A stretch of DNA of 64,000 nt from Methanosaeta sp. PtaU1.Bin060 (GTDB lineage: Archaea; Halobacteriota; Methanosarcinia; Methanotrichales; Methanotrichaceae). This document shows positions 42,576 through 50,254 of the stretch, one piece after another; position 1 is the first letter of the stretch; the number at the start of each line of letters is the position of its first letter. Made by a program: the position numbers and the translations under genes. The DNA lies in NCBI GenBank assembly GCA_002067365.1, contig MVRK01000029.1:1-64000 (forward strand), written 5' to 3'. The notes under the pieces are model-generated. The model made no database searches and had not been told where the DNA came from. It saw only the letters and a list, made by a program, of their open reading frames with translations.

Positions 42576-43682
42576 GTGCTGAAAGAGCCTTCAGACCTAC
42601 GAACTGCTCATCTACTGAGATGGATCTGCCTAGCCGCAGGCTTGATTTTGCTGGCCAATCCGGGTTGCTCCTCCGAATATCCCTTTGGGACGAAAGTCCT
42701 GCAAGCAGACGCAGATGTCGGAAGACCGATTTATGGCATCTCTGCTGATGCATCAGTCGGTTATTGGGATACGGGAACGCCAGGATATGACGAAACAGAT
42801 CCCGTGTACCTGCACATATCTGCACAAGGCTGCAGTGCCACACGCTCCGGCGACATTCGCCTCACCTCTTTCGAGGGCCATCCCGCAGGTTCGAAGATAG
42901 AGCCCCAGGACGATGACTCGAATCAGCCATTGACGCCTATGGCGGCTACAATCAGATATCTTAACCTGCATGGCAGTCAGGCATACGATCTCGAAGATCC
43001 GGTCTACTTGCATCAGGGCGCTTGGAATTGTGTTGATGTTCAAGGGGCCGGAAGCGCGATGACATATGCAGATCAAGATCCCGATCCGCATCTCGACAAA
43101 GAGGCCTCTGCAAGTGATTTCGCTGAGCGGCTTCCTTACAGGGATCGCGGCATCTTCATCGCTGGGGCGAGATGCATCTCTTTCACAGATGGTTATAAAT
43201 TGCTCATTTCGGATCGGTTTATCGATGTTGCTCCAAAAGCTGCAGGCATGTGGCGGGGATTGATGGTCGAAGTGATTCATGGTCTGAAGGCCGATTATTA
43301 TCATGCGCTTGGCACCTGGTTCGTAAAAATATCGCCTGCCAAGATGAACTCGGAAGGTTCGGATAAATGGGCATATGATGGTGGTGTGGCTTTCTCAGCG
43401 ACAGAGCTCATCTGCACCAATGATATCAGATTGAGCAACTCTGGCGGATTGGCGGCTGGAACGAAGGTGGTGAACTTCGATCCAGATCAAAATAAGATTG
43501 TGGCATCTCAAGCCCTTGTGAGCTTCAGTGCAGAGAATACTGAGGCTGCAAGAATAGGGTACTTCGATGCAAACGGCGACGGCATATACGATTACCCCGA
43601 TGATGTTTATCTGAATTTCCCTGGAAGCGATACAAGCTCTGTAGCGGTCAATAACCTGCGGCTTTCGGGACCGATCCCATAG
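42576..43682 (+). CDS. Secreted protein with repeated modules and EF-hand-like loop
   Basis: 368 aa, GTG start. Signal peptide LAAGLILLANPGCSS (possible lipoprotein Cys). The body consists of modules with the pattern GTKV...WDTG...GYD..DPVYL...DIRLTSF, then YLNLHGSQAYDLEDPVYLH; near the C-terminus a loop DANGDGIYDYPDD resembles a calcium-binding EF-hand/dockerin loop. About 100 residues between modules two and three (from ADQDPDPHLDKEA to AFSATELI) are an insert absent from the paralogue at 43949. Likely surface-located; unknown role. Confidence 0.75.
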   Translation: MLKEPSDLRTAHLLRWICLAAGLILLANPGCSSEYPFGTKVLQADADVGRPIYGISADASVGYWDTGTPGYDETDPVYLHISAQGCSATRSGDIRLTSFEGHPAGSKIEPQDDDSNQPLTPMAATIRYLNLHGSQAYDLEDPVYLHQGAWNCVDVQGAGSAMTYADQDPDPHLDKEASASDFAERLPYRDRGIFIAGARCISFTDGYKLLISDRFIDVAPKAAGMWRGLMVEVIHGLKADYYHALGTWFVKISPAKMNSEGSDKWAYDGGVAFSATELICTNDIRLSNSGGLAAGTKVVNFDPDQNKIVASQALVSFSAENTEAARIGYFDANGDGIYDYPDDVYLNFPGSDTSSVAVNNLRLSGPIP

Positions 43683-43948
43683 GACATCTCTTGTATTTTG
43701 TGCCCCTCTCGCAGCCTTGCGCAGGCGGAGAGGGCCGACCAGGTTGCACATAATCGTCATCTCATCGCTTAATCCCTCTCTTATTTTTACAGGCGCATCG
43801 ACCTTGATATCTAATATTTGATTAAATTCTATATTAAATAAATCAAATTCGAAATACATCTCAGATAATATGTAATATATAAATTAAAAAAGTTACTTAT
43901 ACTATCATTGCCTTGCTAATCGTAATAATCTCTCGGAGTGGATTTGGT

Positions 43949-44659
43949 ATGATGACGCTCATGAAAACTGTATTGACAGCCGTCGGCCTGTTGTTCTTGC
44001 TCATGGGCCTCGCAGGCGCTTCAGAATATGCGTTCGGAACGAAGGTATTGCCTGGAGATAGCGATATCGGAAGACCTCTTTTTTCATTGCCAGCAGGAAC
44101 TACTGTCGCTTTCTGGGATACGGGTGTTGTGCCAGGATATGACGATTCAGATGTCGTTTACCTCGTGACCCCGCCGGTGGCATCACTTACTGTGAAGGCG
44201 AATGATGTGAGGCTTACGAGCTTTGGGATGCTTCAGCCAGGCTCAAAGGTGACGCCACTGGATAATGATATCGGCATGCCATTGACGCTGTTTCCATCAG
44301 GCTCCTCGATCTGTTACCTCGATCTATTTGGAAGCCAAGCTTATGATTTGGGAGACCCTGTTTATGTCCATCGTGGCTCAGCCTTTGTGACCCTCGTCAA
44401 TGACATCCGGCTGAATGTTACATCAGGCTTCGGATTGATGCCCGGCACGAAGCTCTGCGATTTTGAGCCGGACCTCAACAGAGTCATAAGAGCTGCATTG
44501 GTGCCCCTGCCGAAGGCTTCTGGCAGCAGCCTCGCGTTCTTTGATGTAAATGGCAATGGAGTGTACGATTATTGGGATGACGTCTACATGAATGTGCCTG
44601 CAGGAGCGCCGGGAGGCGCTGTCGCAGTGAATAATGTGAGGCTCTCCGGGCCGGTCTAG
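43949..44659 (+). CDS. Secreted paralogue of the upstream repeated-module protein
   Basis: 236 aa. Signal peptide (LTAVGLLFLLMGLAGA). Same modules as its neighbour: YAFGTKVLPGDSDIGRPLF, FWDTG, GYDDSDVVYL, NDVRLTSF, YLDLFGSQAYDLGDPVYVH, and the calcium-type loop DVNGNGVYDYWDD followed by VAVNNVRLSGPV. It looks like an uninterrupted version of the ancestral protein. GGAGTGGAT lies before ATG 43949. Tandem duplication of a surface protein is the simplest reading. Confidence 0.78.
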   Translation: MMTLMKTVLTAVGLLFLLMGLAGASEYAFGTKVLPGDSDIGRPLFSLPAGTTVAFWDTGVVPGYDDSDVVYLVTPPVASLTVKANDVRLTSFGMLQPGSKVTPLDNDIGMPLTLFPSGSSICYLDLFGSQAYDLGDPVYVHRGSAFVTLVNDIRLNVTSGFGLMPGTKLCDFEPDLNRVIRAALVPLPKASGSSLAFFDVNGNGVYDYWDDVYMNVPAGAPGGAVAVNNVRLSGPV

Positions 44660-44739: not shown

Positions 44740-44748
44740 CCCCAAAGC
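44740..44748. repeat. Left 9-bp target-site duplication
   Basis: CCCCAAAGC directly abuts the left terminal inverted repeat (44749) and recurs exactly at 50246-50254 outside the right end. Confidence 0.8.
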
Positions 44749-44752
44749 GGCT

Positions 44753-44812
44753 TTGCACGTAAAATAGGGTTTTAGGCTGATTTTACGTGCAGACTTCGGG
44801 TTTTACGTGCAG
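44753..44812. repeat. Subterminal repeats, left end of transposon
   Basis: TTGCACGTAAAA at 44753-44764 (direct) and TTTTACGTGCAG at 44781-44792 and 44801-44812 (inverted, 20-base spacing). The last two overlap the transposase stop codon region. Such repeats are usual transposase-binding sites. 44755-44765 and 44780-44790 also form a perfect 11-bp stem that could stop transcription at the element border. Confidence 0.7.
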
Positions 44813-45997
44813 GAACTCAGGTTGTATCCCATTTTCGTACATCTCATGAATTACCACGGTCAAGTTGTACGCAATAATTTTAGCCAGTAGTTCATTTACT
44901 TGAGCAGTTGGATTCTTGGATTTCAGCGTCTCGCCAAACTTGCGCTTGATGGCTGCATTGGTTGCCTCGATGTTACTCCTCTTATGGTAGTGCTCCATGA
45001 ACTCATCACGGTTAAGCTGGAAGTAATGGTACATCTTGCCCCAAAGGGTTGACCCCTTCGCTTTTCCAGTGGCGTTTTTCTTGAAGGGGATGTATGCCTT
45101 CCCGCCAGTGTTTGCCACGTTTTGCAGGTTCATCCTTGATGAGTATGCCAGGTCAGCAGAGACTTCGTTGATGGTGAATCCTTGTGCCGTTTTCCTGACA
45201 AGAGGCCCGAACTGAGGCGAGTCGTTGCTATATGCGTCAGTGATTGCCACGGCAGCAACCACATTAGTTTTGACGCCTGCGCAAAGGTGAGCTTTTACCC
45301 ATTGATGCTCTTTCTTTTGTCCATGCTTTGCGCCGTTGTAGGCGCTGAATGTGGTCGTCCTAAATCCAGTTGAATCGACTGCGAAATCAACCTCGATTCC
45401 AGCGACAGGTAAAGCGGAGAGTGTGACTAACTCATGTAGAATGGGCGTTATCTCTGGATTCCTGAAGAGGATAGATGGCTGGTTGAAGTTGGGTGCGTGG
45501 CTGATCTGCCCTTTCTCAGTGGCATTCTGGAAGAGGCTATGGGCGCGCCTGCTCGATAGCTGCGAATAGACTTTCTGGATCGCGCAGAATGTAGACTCTT
45601 GGAGAGATAAGCGCGGTCTGCCCATCGTTTGCTCTGGTTCTGGTATGGCTTTAACCAAGTCTTTCAGCAGCTCGTCAAAGAGCTTGACTTCTGCCTTCTG
45701 CGCTGCGTTGTAGGCATCCCAGGCTTGTTTGTAGGTTAGATGGACTTTTTCAGTTACGGTTCCCTGTGGGGTGTCCTTCTCGATTTCCAGATAGTAACGT
45801 GTCGCTTGAATGTGTTTGCACTTGCCGCCGCGATAAACAAAATCAGGGCAGGTGCAAGTCATGCCGTTTGGCGTTGCTTTGACTTCATAGACGCCGTTTC
45901 CTGATTGGGATTTGACTTTGAATGAGTGATCATTAACTTTCTTGACGTTGCCTTGGTCTGCTATTGCTTTGCCCCGATCTTCTCTCATGTCTCGCAT
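44783..45997 (-). CDS. Transposase, IS4-like, with N-terminal SWIM zinc finger
   Basis: 404 aa. Residues about 30-75 are a SWIM finger (CTCPDFVYRGGKCKH: CxC...CxH). The C-terminal catalytic part has DSTGFRTTTFSAYNG (first Asp), a second Asp region in EVSADLAYSS, and the YHKRSNIEATNAAIK segment matching the Y-x2-R-x3-E-x6-K signature of the IS4 family. ATG 45997 fits a TATA box GTTATAAATA (46030-46021) as a leaderless start; the frame is open to 46054. The stop lies 34 bases inside the left end of the element. Confidence 0.88.
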   Translation of the reverse strand: MRDMREDRGKAIADQGNVKKVNDHSFKVKSQSGNGVYEVKATPNGMTCTCPDFVYRGGKCKHIQATRYYLEIEKDTPQGTVTEKVHLTYKQAWDAYNAAQKAEVKLFDELLKDLVKAIPEPEQTMGRPRLSLQESTFCAIQKVYSQLSSRRAHSLFQNATEKGQISHAPNFNQPSILFRNPEITPILHELVTLSALPVAGIEVDFAVDSTGFRTTTFSAYNGAKHGQKKEHQWVKAHLCAGVKTNVVAAVAITDAYSNDSPQFGPLVRKTAQGFTINEVSADLAYSSRMNLQNVANTGGKAYIPFKKNATGKAKGSTLWGKMYHYFQLNRDEFMEHYHKRSNIEATNAAIKRKFGETLKSKNPTAQVNELLAKIIAYNLTVVIHEMYENGIQPEFLHVKPEVCT

Positions 45998-46075
45998 ACT
46001 ACAGTATATACCATAGAAGGTATTTATAACTTGCGCATACTTTGGTATAAACAAAGTTATATACTATGAGTATGC
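45994..46075. promoter_or_regulatory. Divergent promoters with GCATACT repeats
   Basis: Between transposase and the AbrB-like gene: GCATACT at 45994-46000 and 46035-46041, and its inverse AGTATGC at 46069-46075. Each TATA box lies between copies: GTTATAAATA (minus, 46030-46021) for transposase and GTTATATACT (plus, about 46056-46065) for the small gene. This suggests one regulator, plausibly the AbrB-like protein itself, controls both directions. Confidence 0.55.
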
Positions 46076-46087
46076 AACGTATGAGGC

Positions 46088-46249
46088 ATGACCGGAAAAG
46101 TCACAGTCAAGATTTATGCGGTAAAGTCGCGACATACTATTAATCTGCCTAGCGATTTTGTGAGAGACAGCGCGTTTCCGTTTGAGGTAGGAGAGGAGCT
46201 AGTGGCAAGAATCGAGAATAGGAAAGTGATTATCGAGAAGAAGCAATGA
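46088..46249 (+). CDS. AbrB/SpoVT-like small DNA-binding protein
   Basis: 53 aa. The sequence VKSRHTINLPSDFVRDSAF then VGEELVARIENRKVIIEK follows the swapped-hairpin AbrB pattern (beta-strand, INLP turn, helix, G-E strand pair). It may repress the divergent transposase or act as an antitoxin-like regulator. ATG 46088 follows GAGG. Its last 20 bases overlap the end of the convergent specificity gene. It lies inside the transposon. Confidence 0.72.
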   Translation: MTGKVTVKIYAVKSRHTINLPSDFVRDSAFPFEVGEELVARIENRKVIIEKKQ

Positions 46250-47720
46250 CTCTATGCGAACTAGATACTATGAGATCTTCAAGTTTTAATATCGTTGCTT
46301 TCTCCCGCTTATACGCATCAGTATATTTCTTTATTGCTTCCAGCGCCGGATTACCAATTTCGTCTTGAATATATCGTGATGGCAGCGGGAATTTTACCAA
46401 AGAAAGCTGGTTATCGTCGATATGGACGACCACCGAACCATAGGTATATCTCTTTACCAACTCACTTCCATAACTGCTTGCCAAGAAGGTGTAGATATAA
46501 CCCGCATTTGATTCTTTGCTTGGAACAACTCGTAATATGTCCTCGCTTGCTGACCACCCATCAAAATGTGCGGGAGCTAGAACTGTATTTCCTATCGTTC
46601 CGCTACGTGTAATTAAAATCATGTTTTTATGAAGTACCAATTGTTCTTGAATTCGCTTGCCATGTAGAGTTTTTGAAATGTATTTTACTCGTTCAGGATC
46701 AAATTGAAGAATATCTCCTCCCGATAAGAACGGAATTCCATATTCGTCTTCAACAGGCACTCTTTTAAACCTGCCAGGTAATATTATTCTTTCACTAACT
46801 CTCTTGTCTCCCAATGTGGTCAATTCTACTGGCGCTGCCTTAAGCCGCTCAACGATTTTGTCAATAAGAGGAGCATGGAATGATGCATCAAGGCGATGTT
46901 CCCAGTTATTTATATTCAATGAAAATGATCTCAAATCAGAATCATCAGTAAGATATTTCACATACAAATCTTTTAGAGGTGGCAAATTCAAACGCTTATA
47001 TAATAAATCATTGGCACTCGCAAGCAGCTCATACGCCTCATCACGAAGCCTGAAAGCAGTTGCTATATTCTCATTTATTTCTTTTTTTATATTTAATGGT
47101 GGGTTTGGGATAAAAATCTCTGCGAGATGTCTTGGTTCAATATGCGTTACGACTGATCCATAATTATTCGTTGTAATAAGCTGTTTACCAATTTTTGTTT
47201 TCAAAAAAGCATAAACATATCCTACATCATCGCTATTGTGGCATTCAATTCTAATGAGGTCGTGTGAGAATATTCTGCCTTTCAAAATATTTGAAACGAC
47301 GCTACATAAACCAATAGTTCCAGAACAAGTAAATACAATTTGACCCTTCTTGAGTTCCAAAGACTCCACTAGATCTTTTGTCGGATTTGCAATGAAGCTC
47401 CTTGATCTAGGGATAAAATCGAGGATTTGAGATGCTGCATAAATTGGAACACCATCTTTGACAAAGATTTTTTTAAATTGATCTGAGCGAAAGTTATATG
47501 CACGTTCAGCAAAGCCACCATCTCCGAATAAGGGTATTTTCGGATATGGACAACCTGCAATTATCTGTCTTGCATTTCTGCCTTCAGCCGCATAAAAAGA
47601 TGCATCAAGACGTTTACCACGCCTAAATATTTCATTTAACTCAATTGATACATGATGCAAACCATCTTTCTGAAAAGACTCTAGGTCTAATTGAACAGTA
47701 TCTAATAATTGCTTCACCAT
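46230..47720 (-). CDS. hsdS: Type I-like restriction specificity (S) subunit
   Basis: 496 aa with two target-recognition domains, each with the paired motifs typical of HsdS: FTCSGTIGL and YGSVVTHIEPRHL in the first half, ITRSGTIGN and YGSVVVHIDDNQL in the second, joined by helical linkers. It sets the bipartite DNA target for the partner methylase-nuclease. The start overlaps the upstream gene by 7 bases (ATGGTGA), so translation is coupled. AT-rich. Confidence 0.92.
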   Translation of the reverse strand: MVKQLLDTVQLDLESFQKDGLHHVSIELNEIFRRGKRLDASFYAAEGRNARQIIAGCPYPKIPLFGDGGFAERAYNFRSDQFKKIFVKDGVPIYAASQILDFIPRSRSFIANPTKDLVESLELKKGQIVFTCSGTIGLCSVVSNILKGRIFSHDLIRIECHNSDDVGYVYAFLKTKIGKQLITTNNYGSVVTHIEPRHLAEIFIPNPPLNIKKEINENIATAFRLRDEAYELLASANDLLYKRLNLPPLKDLYVKYLTDDSDLRSFSLNINNWEHRLDASFHAPLIDKIVERLKAAPVELTTLGDKRVSERIILPGRFKRVPVEDEYGIPFLSGGDILQFDPERVKYISKTLHGKRIQEQLVLHKNMILITRSGTIGNTVLAPAHFDGWSASEDILRVVPSKESNAGYIYTFLASSYGSELVKRYTYGSVVVHIDDNQLSLVKFPLPSRYIQDEIGNPALEAIKKYTDAYKREKATILKLEDLIVSSSHRVIASSR

Positions 47721-49771
47721 TCAATCCCTTCGATCTTTTTCCATTGAAGAAAAGCGTCAGCTATTGCATCGGTTTGATCATCTATAAGTTTCTTCTTAGG
47801 AAGATTTGAATAAGTAATAGTTCCATCGGAGATTTGATCTATCAATAAGCCGTTCGTCTCAGGAACGAGAAGTTCGTTTCCTTCTTTATCACGCCGGAAG
47901 AGCGTATTGCCTCGTTTATCGTGACCTATTTTATCAGCAATAGAGAAAAATATATTATATATTTTCATTTTTCTAGTTTTAATTTCGCTGTCCAACTCTT
48001 TTTGAGTCTTTTTTTGCAGGAACAGCACTGAAGTCTGAGTGCCATTATGAGGTTGGAAAGTGTCTGGATGTAGGTCAACACAAGCCACGACCCTATTGTA
48101 CTGGATTATCCATTCACGAACAGAAGCATATCCCATTCCAGGGGCGCTCAATATACCTCTAGGAAGCACAATCGCCATGTGCCCACCGGGTTTTAAGAAT
48201 TGCCAGCATCTTTCCACAAAAAGAACCTCTGGTGCTCTTGACGATACCAAATTCTCAGTTTTGTAGAGTGCCCCATCTTCGGTCTCGCGCCAAGTATGAC
48301 CCAAATCGTATTGTTCCAGGATAGTGGAGTCTTTGATTGGCAATTTCGTCCCGAAGGGCGGATTTGTGACGACGACATCAAAAAGAGCTATGTCTATCGC
48401 CTTCCTAATCGATCCTTCTGGCAAATCGAATAATTTACACAAGCCATCTTTAAGTTCTTTTGACCATTCATGTGGCGGAGCCAAAGAATCCGTTTGAATG
48501 ATATTTCCACTGCCGTCATTATTCATTACCATATTCATTTTAGTGGCTTTAACCAAATCGGGATTTATATCAAACCCAAAGAACTGCCTTCGCGCTATTT
48601 CTTTTATTCGTTCTCGAACATTTTCATGTTGCTGCCCCGTCCAATCAGTTCGAGGCTTTCCTGTTGAAGTCTCCATTTCATTTTGCAGGCGAGAAATCGC
48701 GTTATTCATCGCAATTACTAGGAATCCTCCTGTTCCACATGCGGGATCTAATACACTGGAGTCTATACCAATATCCAACATCTTTATTGCCATTTTAACG
48801 ATATTCCTCGGCGTGAAGAATTCGCCACGATCCCCTCTCAGGTTTGCCCCTACCAATTCTTCATAGGCTTTTCCTTTTACATCAATATAGGTATCTAAGA
48901 AGCTATATTTTTGTAGTTCACTAACTACATAGGCGAGGCTACGTGGTTTTAGTTGGATTTCATCAGTTTTGTTGAATATGGTGGGATATCGTTGCTTGAC
49001 TTTGCCAAAGATTTTAGCTATGCGCTTTTGTACTGTAAGTTGTCCATCGGGCGAGGAGCGTTCACGACTACTGGCGAAAAATTCTAATGGATATGGTATA
49101 TTGCGTTCGTCTAGGATCTTGCAGAAGATGACTTTTAGCAATTCGAAGAAAGCGGGTTGCTTTTGCATGCCATCCGTTACGTAGATTTGATCATGACATG
49201 CCTTGAATGCAAAAAGTAGGTTGTCTTCGGTCGCAAGCTTTAATGTAGATCGATCGGGCCTATCTAACTCCTCGATAGAACCATCTCTTGATGGTATATC
49301 GTTTGGTTCATCCCACACCATACGCCCATCAGCGGATTTAACTTTACGGAAAACATGTTTTGCTTTCCCGTTTGTCCACATTCCCCACTCGCAATTGAGA
49401 CATGAAGACATATAGGACTTAAGTTGTTCTATGCCCTCCTTTTTATTCATAGGATCGGTTTTTTCGTTTTTACATTCTATTATAATCTTTATGTTTTCCT
49501 GGATATTCTTCAATCCAGCGGGAAAAACGACAACATCCGCTCTTTTCCTCCCTGATCCCAATTTTAGCGAGAACTCAATTGAAATTTGCTCTCGTTTATA
49601 CTTGTGTTCAATTACTAAACGCTTTTCTATATTTTGTCGGATATATTCTTCGGGCGTATCCTTGCGAAATTTGCCATCGATATAATCAGAAATATAGCCA
49701 TCAGGAATAACAATGGCTTCGAGAGAGGGTGGAATCCCATCTGCATTTTTAGGTGATATTTCCTTGTTCAT
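47714..49771 (-). CDS. hsdM: N6-adenine methylase fused to N-terminal PD-(D/E)xK nuclease domain
   Basis: 685 aa from ATG 49771 (ATG 49789 also in frame). Residues about 40-135 form an HsdR-N-like nuclease: Asp79 in RADVVVF, Glu99 and Lys101 in IIIECKNE, then the Gln-containing helix GIEQLKSYM. From about 320 an N6 adenine methylase: DPACGTGGFL (SAM site), FFGFDINPD and the catalytic NPPFG. A separate HsdR translocase is absent from the element. This nuclease-methylase plus S layout is that of BcgI-type (IIB/IIG) enzymes. It may cut on its own with the S subunit. Confidence 0.9.
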   Translation of the reverse strand: MNKEISPKNADGIPPSLEAIVIPDGYISDYIDGKFRKDTPEEYIRQNIEKRLVIEHKYKREQISIEFSLKLGSGRKRADVVVFPAGLKNIQENIKIIIECKNEKTDPMNKKEGIEQLKSYMSSCLNCEWGMWTNGKAKHVFRKVKSADGRMVWDEPNDIPSRDGSIEELDRPDRSTLKLATEDNLLFAFKACHDQIYVTDGMQKQPAFFELLKVIFCKILDERNIPYPLEFFASSRERSSPDGQLTVQKRIAKIFGKVKQRYPTIFNKTDEIQLKPRSLAYVVSELQKYSFLDTYIDVKGKAYEELVGANLRGDRGEFFTPRNIVKMAIKMLDIGIDSSVLDPACGTGGFLVIAMNNAISRLQNEMETSTGKPRTDWTGQQHENVRERIKEIARRQFFGFDINPDLVKATKMNMVMNNDGSGNIIQTDSLAPPHEWSKELKDGLCKLFDLPEGSIRKAIDIALFDVVVTNPPFGTKLPIKDSTILEQYDLGHTWRETEDGALYKTENLVSSRAPEVLFVERCWQFLKPGGHMAIVLPRGILSAPGMGYASVREWIIQYNRVVACVDLHPDTFQPHNGTQTSVLFLQKKTQKELDSEIKTRKMKIYNIFFSIADKIGHDKRGNTLFRRDKEGNELLVPETNGLLIDQISDGTITYSNLPKKKLIDDQTDAIADAFLQWKKIEGIEW

Positions 49772-49772
49772 C

Positions 49773-49946
49773 TCAATCGCTTTCCCCATAATGCTCTTTC
49801 AGCAAGGATAATATCGCGTCATCATAAGTTATTTTGGGACTCTCTTTCTCCGTCACTAAATCCACTTTATATCGCTCCAGTCGTCTATAGGTGTCCATTT
49901 TAAGGGCAATATTTCTTTTCGTATTGGCGTCATCATGTGTCCCCAA
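49773..49946 (-). CDS. Small ribbon-helix-helix-like protein
   Basis: 57 aa from TTG 49946, which has GGGGTG about 8 bases upstream. It reads KRNIALKMDTYRRLERYKVDL then SPKITYDDAILSLLKEHYG, the strand-helix-helix pattern of small antitoxin-type regulators. The TGA is separated from the methylase ATG (49771) by one base, so it is probably the first gene of the restriction-modification operon and could be its controller. The start codon choice is uncertain. Confidence 0.5.
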   Translation of the reverse strand: MGTHDDANTKRNIALKMDTYRRLERYKVDLVTEKESPKITYDDAILSLLKEHYGESD

Positions 49947-50191
49947 GCGTTGTACACCCCGATGTTAATTATTGTGCATTCATCATATTTAATGTTTTTC
50001 ATACATTGTCGATATCAAATATATCAAATACGTAAAATATATTAAATATTTCTAGCACATCAAATGTAAGAAATACATTATATATGCCAGTTACATAAGT
50101 TGGCATACGATACTACTAATTTAAATTTATTTTAAAGTTTGATCTAAGTTATTATCAAACTATATAACCAATTCACTGATACTATCCGTCA

Positions 50192-50241
50192 CTTTATTTG
50201 CAGGCGCTCCACTTAATTTGCAAGAGCGACTTTACATGCAA
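50192..50241. repeat. Subterminal repeats, right end of transposon
   Basis: CTTTATTTGCAG (50192-50203), CTTAATTTGCAA (50212-50223) and CTTTACATGCAA (50230-50241), spaced 20 and 18 bases: inverted relatives of the left-end motif TTGCACGTAAAA. Likely transposase-binding sites. Confidence 0.65.
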
Positions 50242-50245
50242 AGCC

Positions 50246-50254
50246 CCCCAAAGC
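50246..50254. repeat. Right 9-bp target-site duplication
   Basis: CCCCAAAGC follows the right terminal repeat without a gap and matches 44740-44748 exactly. Confidence 0.8.

Follow-up and report, generated by a model that had tools for sequence, protein, structure and literature searches.

A probable IS903-related cargo transposon with a Type IIB-like restriction-modification pair upstream of thrC in Methanothrix

A transposase gene and a restriction-modification (R-M) operon enclosed by one pair of inverted ends raise the question whether the whole stretch is a single mobile element or whether a bare insertion sequence (IS) came to lie beside resident genes. We addressed this for a locus in a Methanothrix genome; the window referred to below is the whole stretch of DNA analysed, 64 kb in length. 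Direct reading of its sequence delimited a unit of 5,497 bp (44749-50245), which very probably represents an intact IS903-related cargo transposon that has a single transposase and a Type IIB-like R-M pair, is inserted upstream of thrC and operates as proposed below. Its parts are the following.

44740..44748, no strand: left copy of the 9-bp target site duplication (TSD), CCCCAAAGC, identical to the right copy
44749..44763, plus strand: left terminal inverted repeat GGCTTTGCACGTAAA, transposase-side end; ends shared with 41 further elements
44781..44791, minus strand: inverted subterminal iteron TTTTACGTGCA, overlapping the transposase stop codon (read from sequence)
44783..45997, minus strand: transposase, 404 aa, with an N-terminal SWIM zinc finger (CTCPDFVYRGGKCKH) and DDE_Tnp_1, IS5/IS903-related (Pfam, NCBIfam, alignment with relatives)
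44801..44811, minus strand: second inverted subterminal iteron TTTTACGTGCA (read from sequence)
46088..46249, plus strand: 53-aa gene divergent from the transposase, probable small DNA-binding regulator (position-matched homologues in the G001 and G014 elements)
46230..47720, minus strand: specificity (S) subunit, 496 aa, two Methylase_S domains (Pfam Methylase_S, 2 stretches, 1.3e-15)
47714..49789, minus strand: fused restriction-methylation (RM) subunit, 691 aa, HSDR_N nuclease and N6-adenine methylase (Pfam HSDR_N_2 1.4e-23, N6_Mtase 5.5e-34)
49773..49946, minus strand: small ORF, 57 aa from TTG, 41 aa from ATG at 49898 (ORF call)
50191..50202, minus strand: cargo-side subterminal iteron 3, TGCAAATAAAGT (read from sequence)
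50211..50223, minus strand: cargo-side subterminal iteron 2, TTGCAAATTAAGT (read from sequence)
50231..50245, minus strand: right terminal inverted repeat TTTACATGCAAAGCC, cargo-side end (read from sequence)
50246..50254, no strand: right TSD copy, 9 bp, CCCCAAAGC (read from sequence)

The two terminal inverted repeats agree at 14 of 15 positions with one mismatch, and the copies of CCCCAAAGC abut both of them directly. An earlier note on this DNA had placed the 15-bp ends at 44749-44763 and 50231-50245 and a gapless 9-bp duplication at 44740-44748 and 50246-50254, and these positions proved exact. A scan of all 64 kb for exact 9-bp repeats around inverted ends of at least 11/15, spaced 1.3-8.5 kb apart, yielded the pair of the unit (14/15) and one unrelated 11/15 pair. 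The end pattern GGCTTTGCANNTAAA matched 49 times in 26 genomes of the genus, and its reversed control not once. The G+C content is 41% for the element and 38.5% for its cargo, and the flanks have 54-57%. The insertion point lies approximately 36 bp upstream of the thrC start codon, where the sequence CAAAGC/CTTAAAG is conserved in relatives that differ in their left flanks. As the 9-bp duplication puts CCCCAAAGC back beside CTTAAAG, the likely promoter of thrC would be kept. The corresponding thrC position in G005 and G006 (L085, 2556-2625; L097) has a further family end, CTTAGATGCAAAGCC, 16 bp upstream of it, and this second end in two other species suggests that the thrC promoter region has been struck more than once. 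To the left of the insertion, the window encodes two adjacent, apparently related proteins of secreted or surface type (42576-43682 and 43913-44659) with repeated 'VNNVRLSGP/DIRLTSF' segments.

From left to right, the unit contains the transposase, the 53-aa gene, the specificity subunit, the nuclease-methylase and the small ORF. The gene set that the earlier note had read here (transposase, small gene, nuclease-methylase/specificity operon) is thus found inside the unit, with Pfam domains for the transposase and for the RM and S subunits; the transposase ATG is at 45997, a small correction to that note. The 53-aa gene is present as described; it had no Pfam match even at E<1, so that the label 'AbrB-like' given to it refers to a sequence pattern only. 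Other elements carry ribbon-helix-helix genes at the regulator position (Pfam RHH_5 in G004). The divergent small gene is of two unrelated types at one position, ribbon-helix-helix or AbrB-like (by pattern), in backbones that are otherwise similar, and the types divide the elements of L033, L037, L039 and L041 from those of the window, L035 and L036. The small ORF at 49773-49946, which overlaps the start of the methylase gene and had no Pfam match, is a possible regulator.

The transposase matched Pfam DDE_Tnp_1 (3.6e-23) and SWIM (8.6e-5), and in an alignment with relatives both the SWIM motif C-x-C..C-x-H and the DDE residues were seen to be intact. The signature Y-x2-R-x3-E-x6-K, on which together with the 9-bp duplication the earlier note had based an assignment to the IS4 family, is present as YHKRSNIEATNAAIK. 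However, a control copy of IS903B (IS5 family; 1,057 bp, ends GGCTTTGTTGAATAAATC, 9-bp repeat) has the signature as well (YNRRSIAETAMYRVK), which is therefore not diagnostic for IS4. Terminal bases of the IS4 subgroups are CAT, CA, AAT, CT and C (PMC2266710, Table 1). IS4 membership was rejected because the GGCTTTG ends fit none of these subgroups, the NCBIfam profile IS4_1 scored 41.3 bits against a cut-off of 115, and the signature does not discriminate. The ends, the duplication and the best NCBIfam profile (IS5_2, 9.5e-38, 130.3 bits, just below the cut-off of 140) point to IS903 of the IS5 family instead. IS903B resembles the window element in its GGCTTTG ends, its 9-bp duplication and a DDE_Tnp_1 transposase with the signature, but it is 1,057 bp long, carries no cargo and shares about 23% protein identity with the window transposase. 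The window element has the GGC.. (GGCTTTG) ends and 9-bp duplication of the IS903 group in a unit of 5,497 bp with cargo rather than in a short single-gene IS of about 1 kb, and it exceeds IS903B by a SWIM finger at the N terminus of the transposase, by three iterons in each end, by a regulator gene and by 4 kb of cargo. By sequence comparison, the element is IS903-related (IS5 family) and outside the strict IS903 group, since SWIM finger, iteron arrays and cargo are absent from IS903. A Tn7-like transposon was also considered and rejected, as the only transposase present is of the DDE_Tnp_1 type, not a TnsB-type transposase with accessory proteins. Plasmids yielded only distant IS5 relatives, all below 60% identity, the tblastn matches listed being mostly annotated as IS5 family; phages likewise yielded distant relatives only.

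Relatives of the transposase are 75-88% identical across the genus and 35-39% identical in other families of the class. Among the best 80 loci, the archaeal carriers were Methanothrix, Micrarchaeota, Thermoplasmata, Nanohalarchaeota, Marsarchaeota, Woese-, Pace-, Nano- and Aenigmarchaeota and Methanocorpusculum, and the bacterial ones Chloroflexota, Acidobacteriota, Planctomycetota and Abditibacteriota. Boundaries were searched at these 80 loci as inverted ends of at least 12/18 with identical 8-12-bp repeats and no motif imposed. At 30 of them (29 non-redundant), ends starting with GGCTTTG or AGCTTTG and a 9-bp repeat enclosed 2.3-8.4 kb; the remaining matches were low-scoring pairs without this motif. 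Together with nine units of the genus (six with exact repeats, three with 8/9 repeats), three from viral contigs and one from G252, the 29 loci make up 42 delimited units of 1.5-8.4 kb with GGCTTTG ends and 9-bp repeats that are identical with few exceptions. Both kinds of copies that the earlier note had proposed to search for, with and without restriction genes, occur among them. A bare IS with a complete transposase was not found among the 42 units, of which the shortest with a complete transposase measure 2.3-2.5 kb; the remark of the earlier note that IS4-type elements rarely carry such cargo thus fails here, as every delimited copy with a complete transposase has cargo. We found no description of this family in open-licence papers (ISfinder lay outside the scope), and this family of single-transposase cargo elements is apparently undescribed.

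Movement of whole units was seen in sister elements. A base-exact empty site with a single CTATGAACA exists in two other species for the 4,732-bp element of G001, which has two large genes as cargo, and empty counterparts were also found for the units of G004 (4,163 bp) and G005 (1,463 bp, no complete transposase). These empty sites are direct proofs of unit movement for the sister elements. The empty site of the window copy, which the earlier note had suggested to look for and in which the joined flanks would read GCTCTTCCCCAAAGCCTTAAAGAGC, was not found in the 26 genomes of the genus, where the thrC side matched at 69-80%. As none of the available species is syntenic to the left of thrC, unit movement of the window copy is argued by analogy, and its single copy in its own 2.78-Mb genome provides no proof of recent movement. 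The earlier reading of the locus as one transposon gains support from the family of 42 units, the sister empty sites and the presence of the same R-M pair in a second element; there is strong support for reading the 5,497-bp unit as one transposon.

The R-M pair combines nuclease and N6 methylase in one polypeptide, with a separate S subunit that has two recognition domains and with no HsdR helicase. In the fused subunit, nuclease residues D85...E105-x-K107 as well as methylase motifs I (DPACGTG, 348) and IV (NPPF, 476) were recognized. The closest pair found in these searches is located inside the L147 element of Micrarchaeota (RM 66%, S 48%, transposase 51% identical to the window), in the same order and orientation relative to the transposase. 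When 393 genomes of the phylum were searched with the R-M methylase, only one other passed 1e-80. It belongs to G252, of the Methanotrichaceae, and to an element (L256) of 5,383 bp with exact 15-bp ends, an exact repeat GCTGGCCGT and a distant R-M pair, the methylase being accompanied by its own S subunit; the transposase is 83% identical to that of the window. Beside this pair, a 150-aa gene (L256, 5438-5890) without a Pfam match looks by eye like an EVE-type modified-base reader. R-M relatives at 54-63% identity occur in viral contigs without the family ends, which implies that the R-M pair has other vehicles. In the transposase tree, the window transposase groups with Methanothrix elements without R-M. 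Cargo exchange therefore explains the R-M pair better than joint descent with the transposase. Between Methanothrix elements, nucleotide homology spans transposase and regulator, stops, and resumes in the last ~55 bp.

The R-M relatives without an element, and the fact that the transposase forms a self-contained module at one end, might be explained by a bare IS that landed beside a resident R-M operon, the far end being coincidental or part of another insertion. The earlier note had named two observations that would argue in this direction, R-M genes at this locus without the ends and a second pair of ends bounding the transposase near 46.1 kb. Neither was seen: no R-M homologue without ends was present at the thrC locus (the best of 60 relatives outside the own genome was 32% identical), and near 46.1 kb no second family end was detected with up to 3 mismatches allowed. 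Moreover, both outer ends are adjoined by identical 9-bp repeats, the 3-iteron array of the family is present at the far end, no bare copy with a complete transposase exists among the delimited units, and related R-M pairs are found within two other elements. This explanation is largely refuted, and we consider it most improbable. It is possible, though we hold it to be unlikely, that the unit is a genuine cargo transposon that has become an immobile relic fixed upstream of thrC. Its single copy, the one mismatch between its ends and the fact that no recent sister insertion with the same cargo was found in the genus would agree with this, but no decay is seen in the DDE and SWIM residues, the reading frames, the ends or the 9-bp repeats, all of which are intact.

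Doubt may also concern the cargo, since the best NCBIfam matches of the R-M pair were MAD2 (614.5 bits) and MAD5 (347.9 bits), so that the pair might be the modification module of a larger, MADS-like system or an orphan methylase. Both scores are below the curated cut-offs (720 and 400, respectively), and MADS membership was rejected on this basis. In addition, the unit contains no further defence gene, the nuclease domain at the N terminus has its D-(x)n-E-x-K motif intact, and among solved structures the RM subunit is closest to the Type IIB enzyme RM.BsaXI (2e-31); together, these points make a mere modification role rather unlikely. Type IIB enzymes such as BsaXI share with the window pair the fused nuclease-methylase polypeptide and the separate specificity subunit; unlike BsaXI, the window pair, known here from its genes, is closer to the MAD2/MAD5 profiles. 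Judged by domain plan, the pair resembles Type IIB systems.

Within the cargo transposon as we read it, each end carries three copies of a short word, which are direct on the cargo side and comprise one terminal and two inverted copies on the transposase side. The word had 3.4 extra copies in an element's own ends versus 0.9 in the ends of other elements. As it differs between elements and yet is kept within each, we infer that it is recognized by the transposase. The DDE transposase, probably aided by the SWIM finger, would bind these element-specific iterons, excise or copy the entire 5.5-kb unit and join it at a 9-bp staggered cut, and the small divergent gene may limit its expression. The R-M pair is predicted to modify and cut DNA at a two-part site, and might thereby defend the host and make loss of the element costly, as in other R-M systems (PMC3031569). 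Cargo would be swapped between elements and the backbone kept, namely ~1.5 kb with transposase and regulator plus some 55-75 bp at the far end, possibly through recombination within the backbone that elements share or because the outer ends of adjacent elements are used.

To evaluate the cargo of the family, Pfam domains were counted. DNA methyltransferases accounted for 19 of 107 cargo proteins, besides S subunits and MamI, NgoPII, AlwI-like and Vsr nucleases. Of the 364 proteins flanking these loci, 1 was matched by the cargo-methylase models, and no R-M family had two or more members among the flanking proteins. Methyltransferases were carried by 18 of 38 units, or by 20 of 41 with the viral contigs found by transposase, in a set that consists of the best 80 loci of one scan, is phylogenetically non-independent and requires 6 changes of the methylase label on the transposase tree. 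Within Methanothrix, only one of nine units has R-M. Cargo is the rule in this family and R-M is enriched, in counts that ignore relatedness among loci. Of the elements recovered by criteria other than R-M, about half encode a DNA methyltransferase.

R-M systems pass rapidly between distant microbes. To our knowledge, few of their vehicles have been identified, and this holds above all for archaea and DPANN; a compact family whose ends are defined allows the spread to be traced, and its element-specific iteron words make transposase-end recognition testable. With passenger genes unrelated to transposition in a single-transposase element, the window unit agrees with cargo-bearing (transporter or modular) IS. 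In IS231/MIC231 (IS4 family; PMC2266710), passenger genes likewise lie between an IS-type transposase and one of the ends, but these elements belong to another family, with ends CAT.. and duplications of 10-12 bp, and such modularity was then unseen in other IS families (PMC2266710). In the PaeR7I system, R-M also moves with IS and its killing activity selects for linkage, but there a plasmid joined chromosomal IS1/IS5 by cointegration, whereas here R-M is internal to one pair of ends (PMC3031569). Tn7-like transposons with defence cargo, in which R-M is the commonest defence cargo and the ends bear arrays of transposase-binding sites, use a multi-gene transposition machinery and are absent from archaea, in contrast to the single transposase of the present family in archaea and bacteria (PMC8649781). 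It appears somewhat more probable than the opposite that this cross-domain family shuttles R-M and other defence genes and fills, in archaea and DPANN, the niche held by Tn7-like elements in bacteria, with iteron word and transposase co-evolving, so that lineages would recognize their own ends only and swap cargo.

Several units differ from this general plan. Four Methanothrix units retain transposase remnants only but still possess both cargo and ends, in the manner of mobile insertion cassettes. From IS231/MIC231, too, cassettes are known that lack a transposase and have the same ends. At L043 2535-3997 (with a BRO-N/DinD-like gene), L042 8768-11032 and L040 6799-8826, units or probable units were observed that combine cargo with no more than the C-terminal part of the transposase; these would depend on transposase in trans. 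A miniature element of 320 bp (L070, 6599-6918) has family ends and an exact 9-bp repeat, CAAAGCACC, but no genes. Two Methanocorpusculum genomes contain the same element at the same site (L181, 8256-12971; L182, 8460-12971) with 99% identity, the gene beside the left end being strongly diverged. The tandem contig of G007 (L033, 1-6656) comprises two identical units of 2,462 bp and one of 1,496 bp with 9-bp spacers in common. Since the outer flanks of this contig are inverted copies of one another, which may reflect misassembly, it was dropped as evidence for array formation. As several cargos belong to no known family, the clear boundaries allow mining for new defence genes. In Thermoplasmata (L129, 3994-11243), a Csa1-like nuclease, a BrxC/D-like ATPase and an ABC-type ATPase lie beside proteins without known family, and this cargo is a candidate defence system of a new type.
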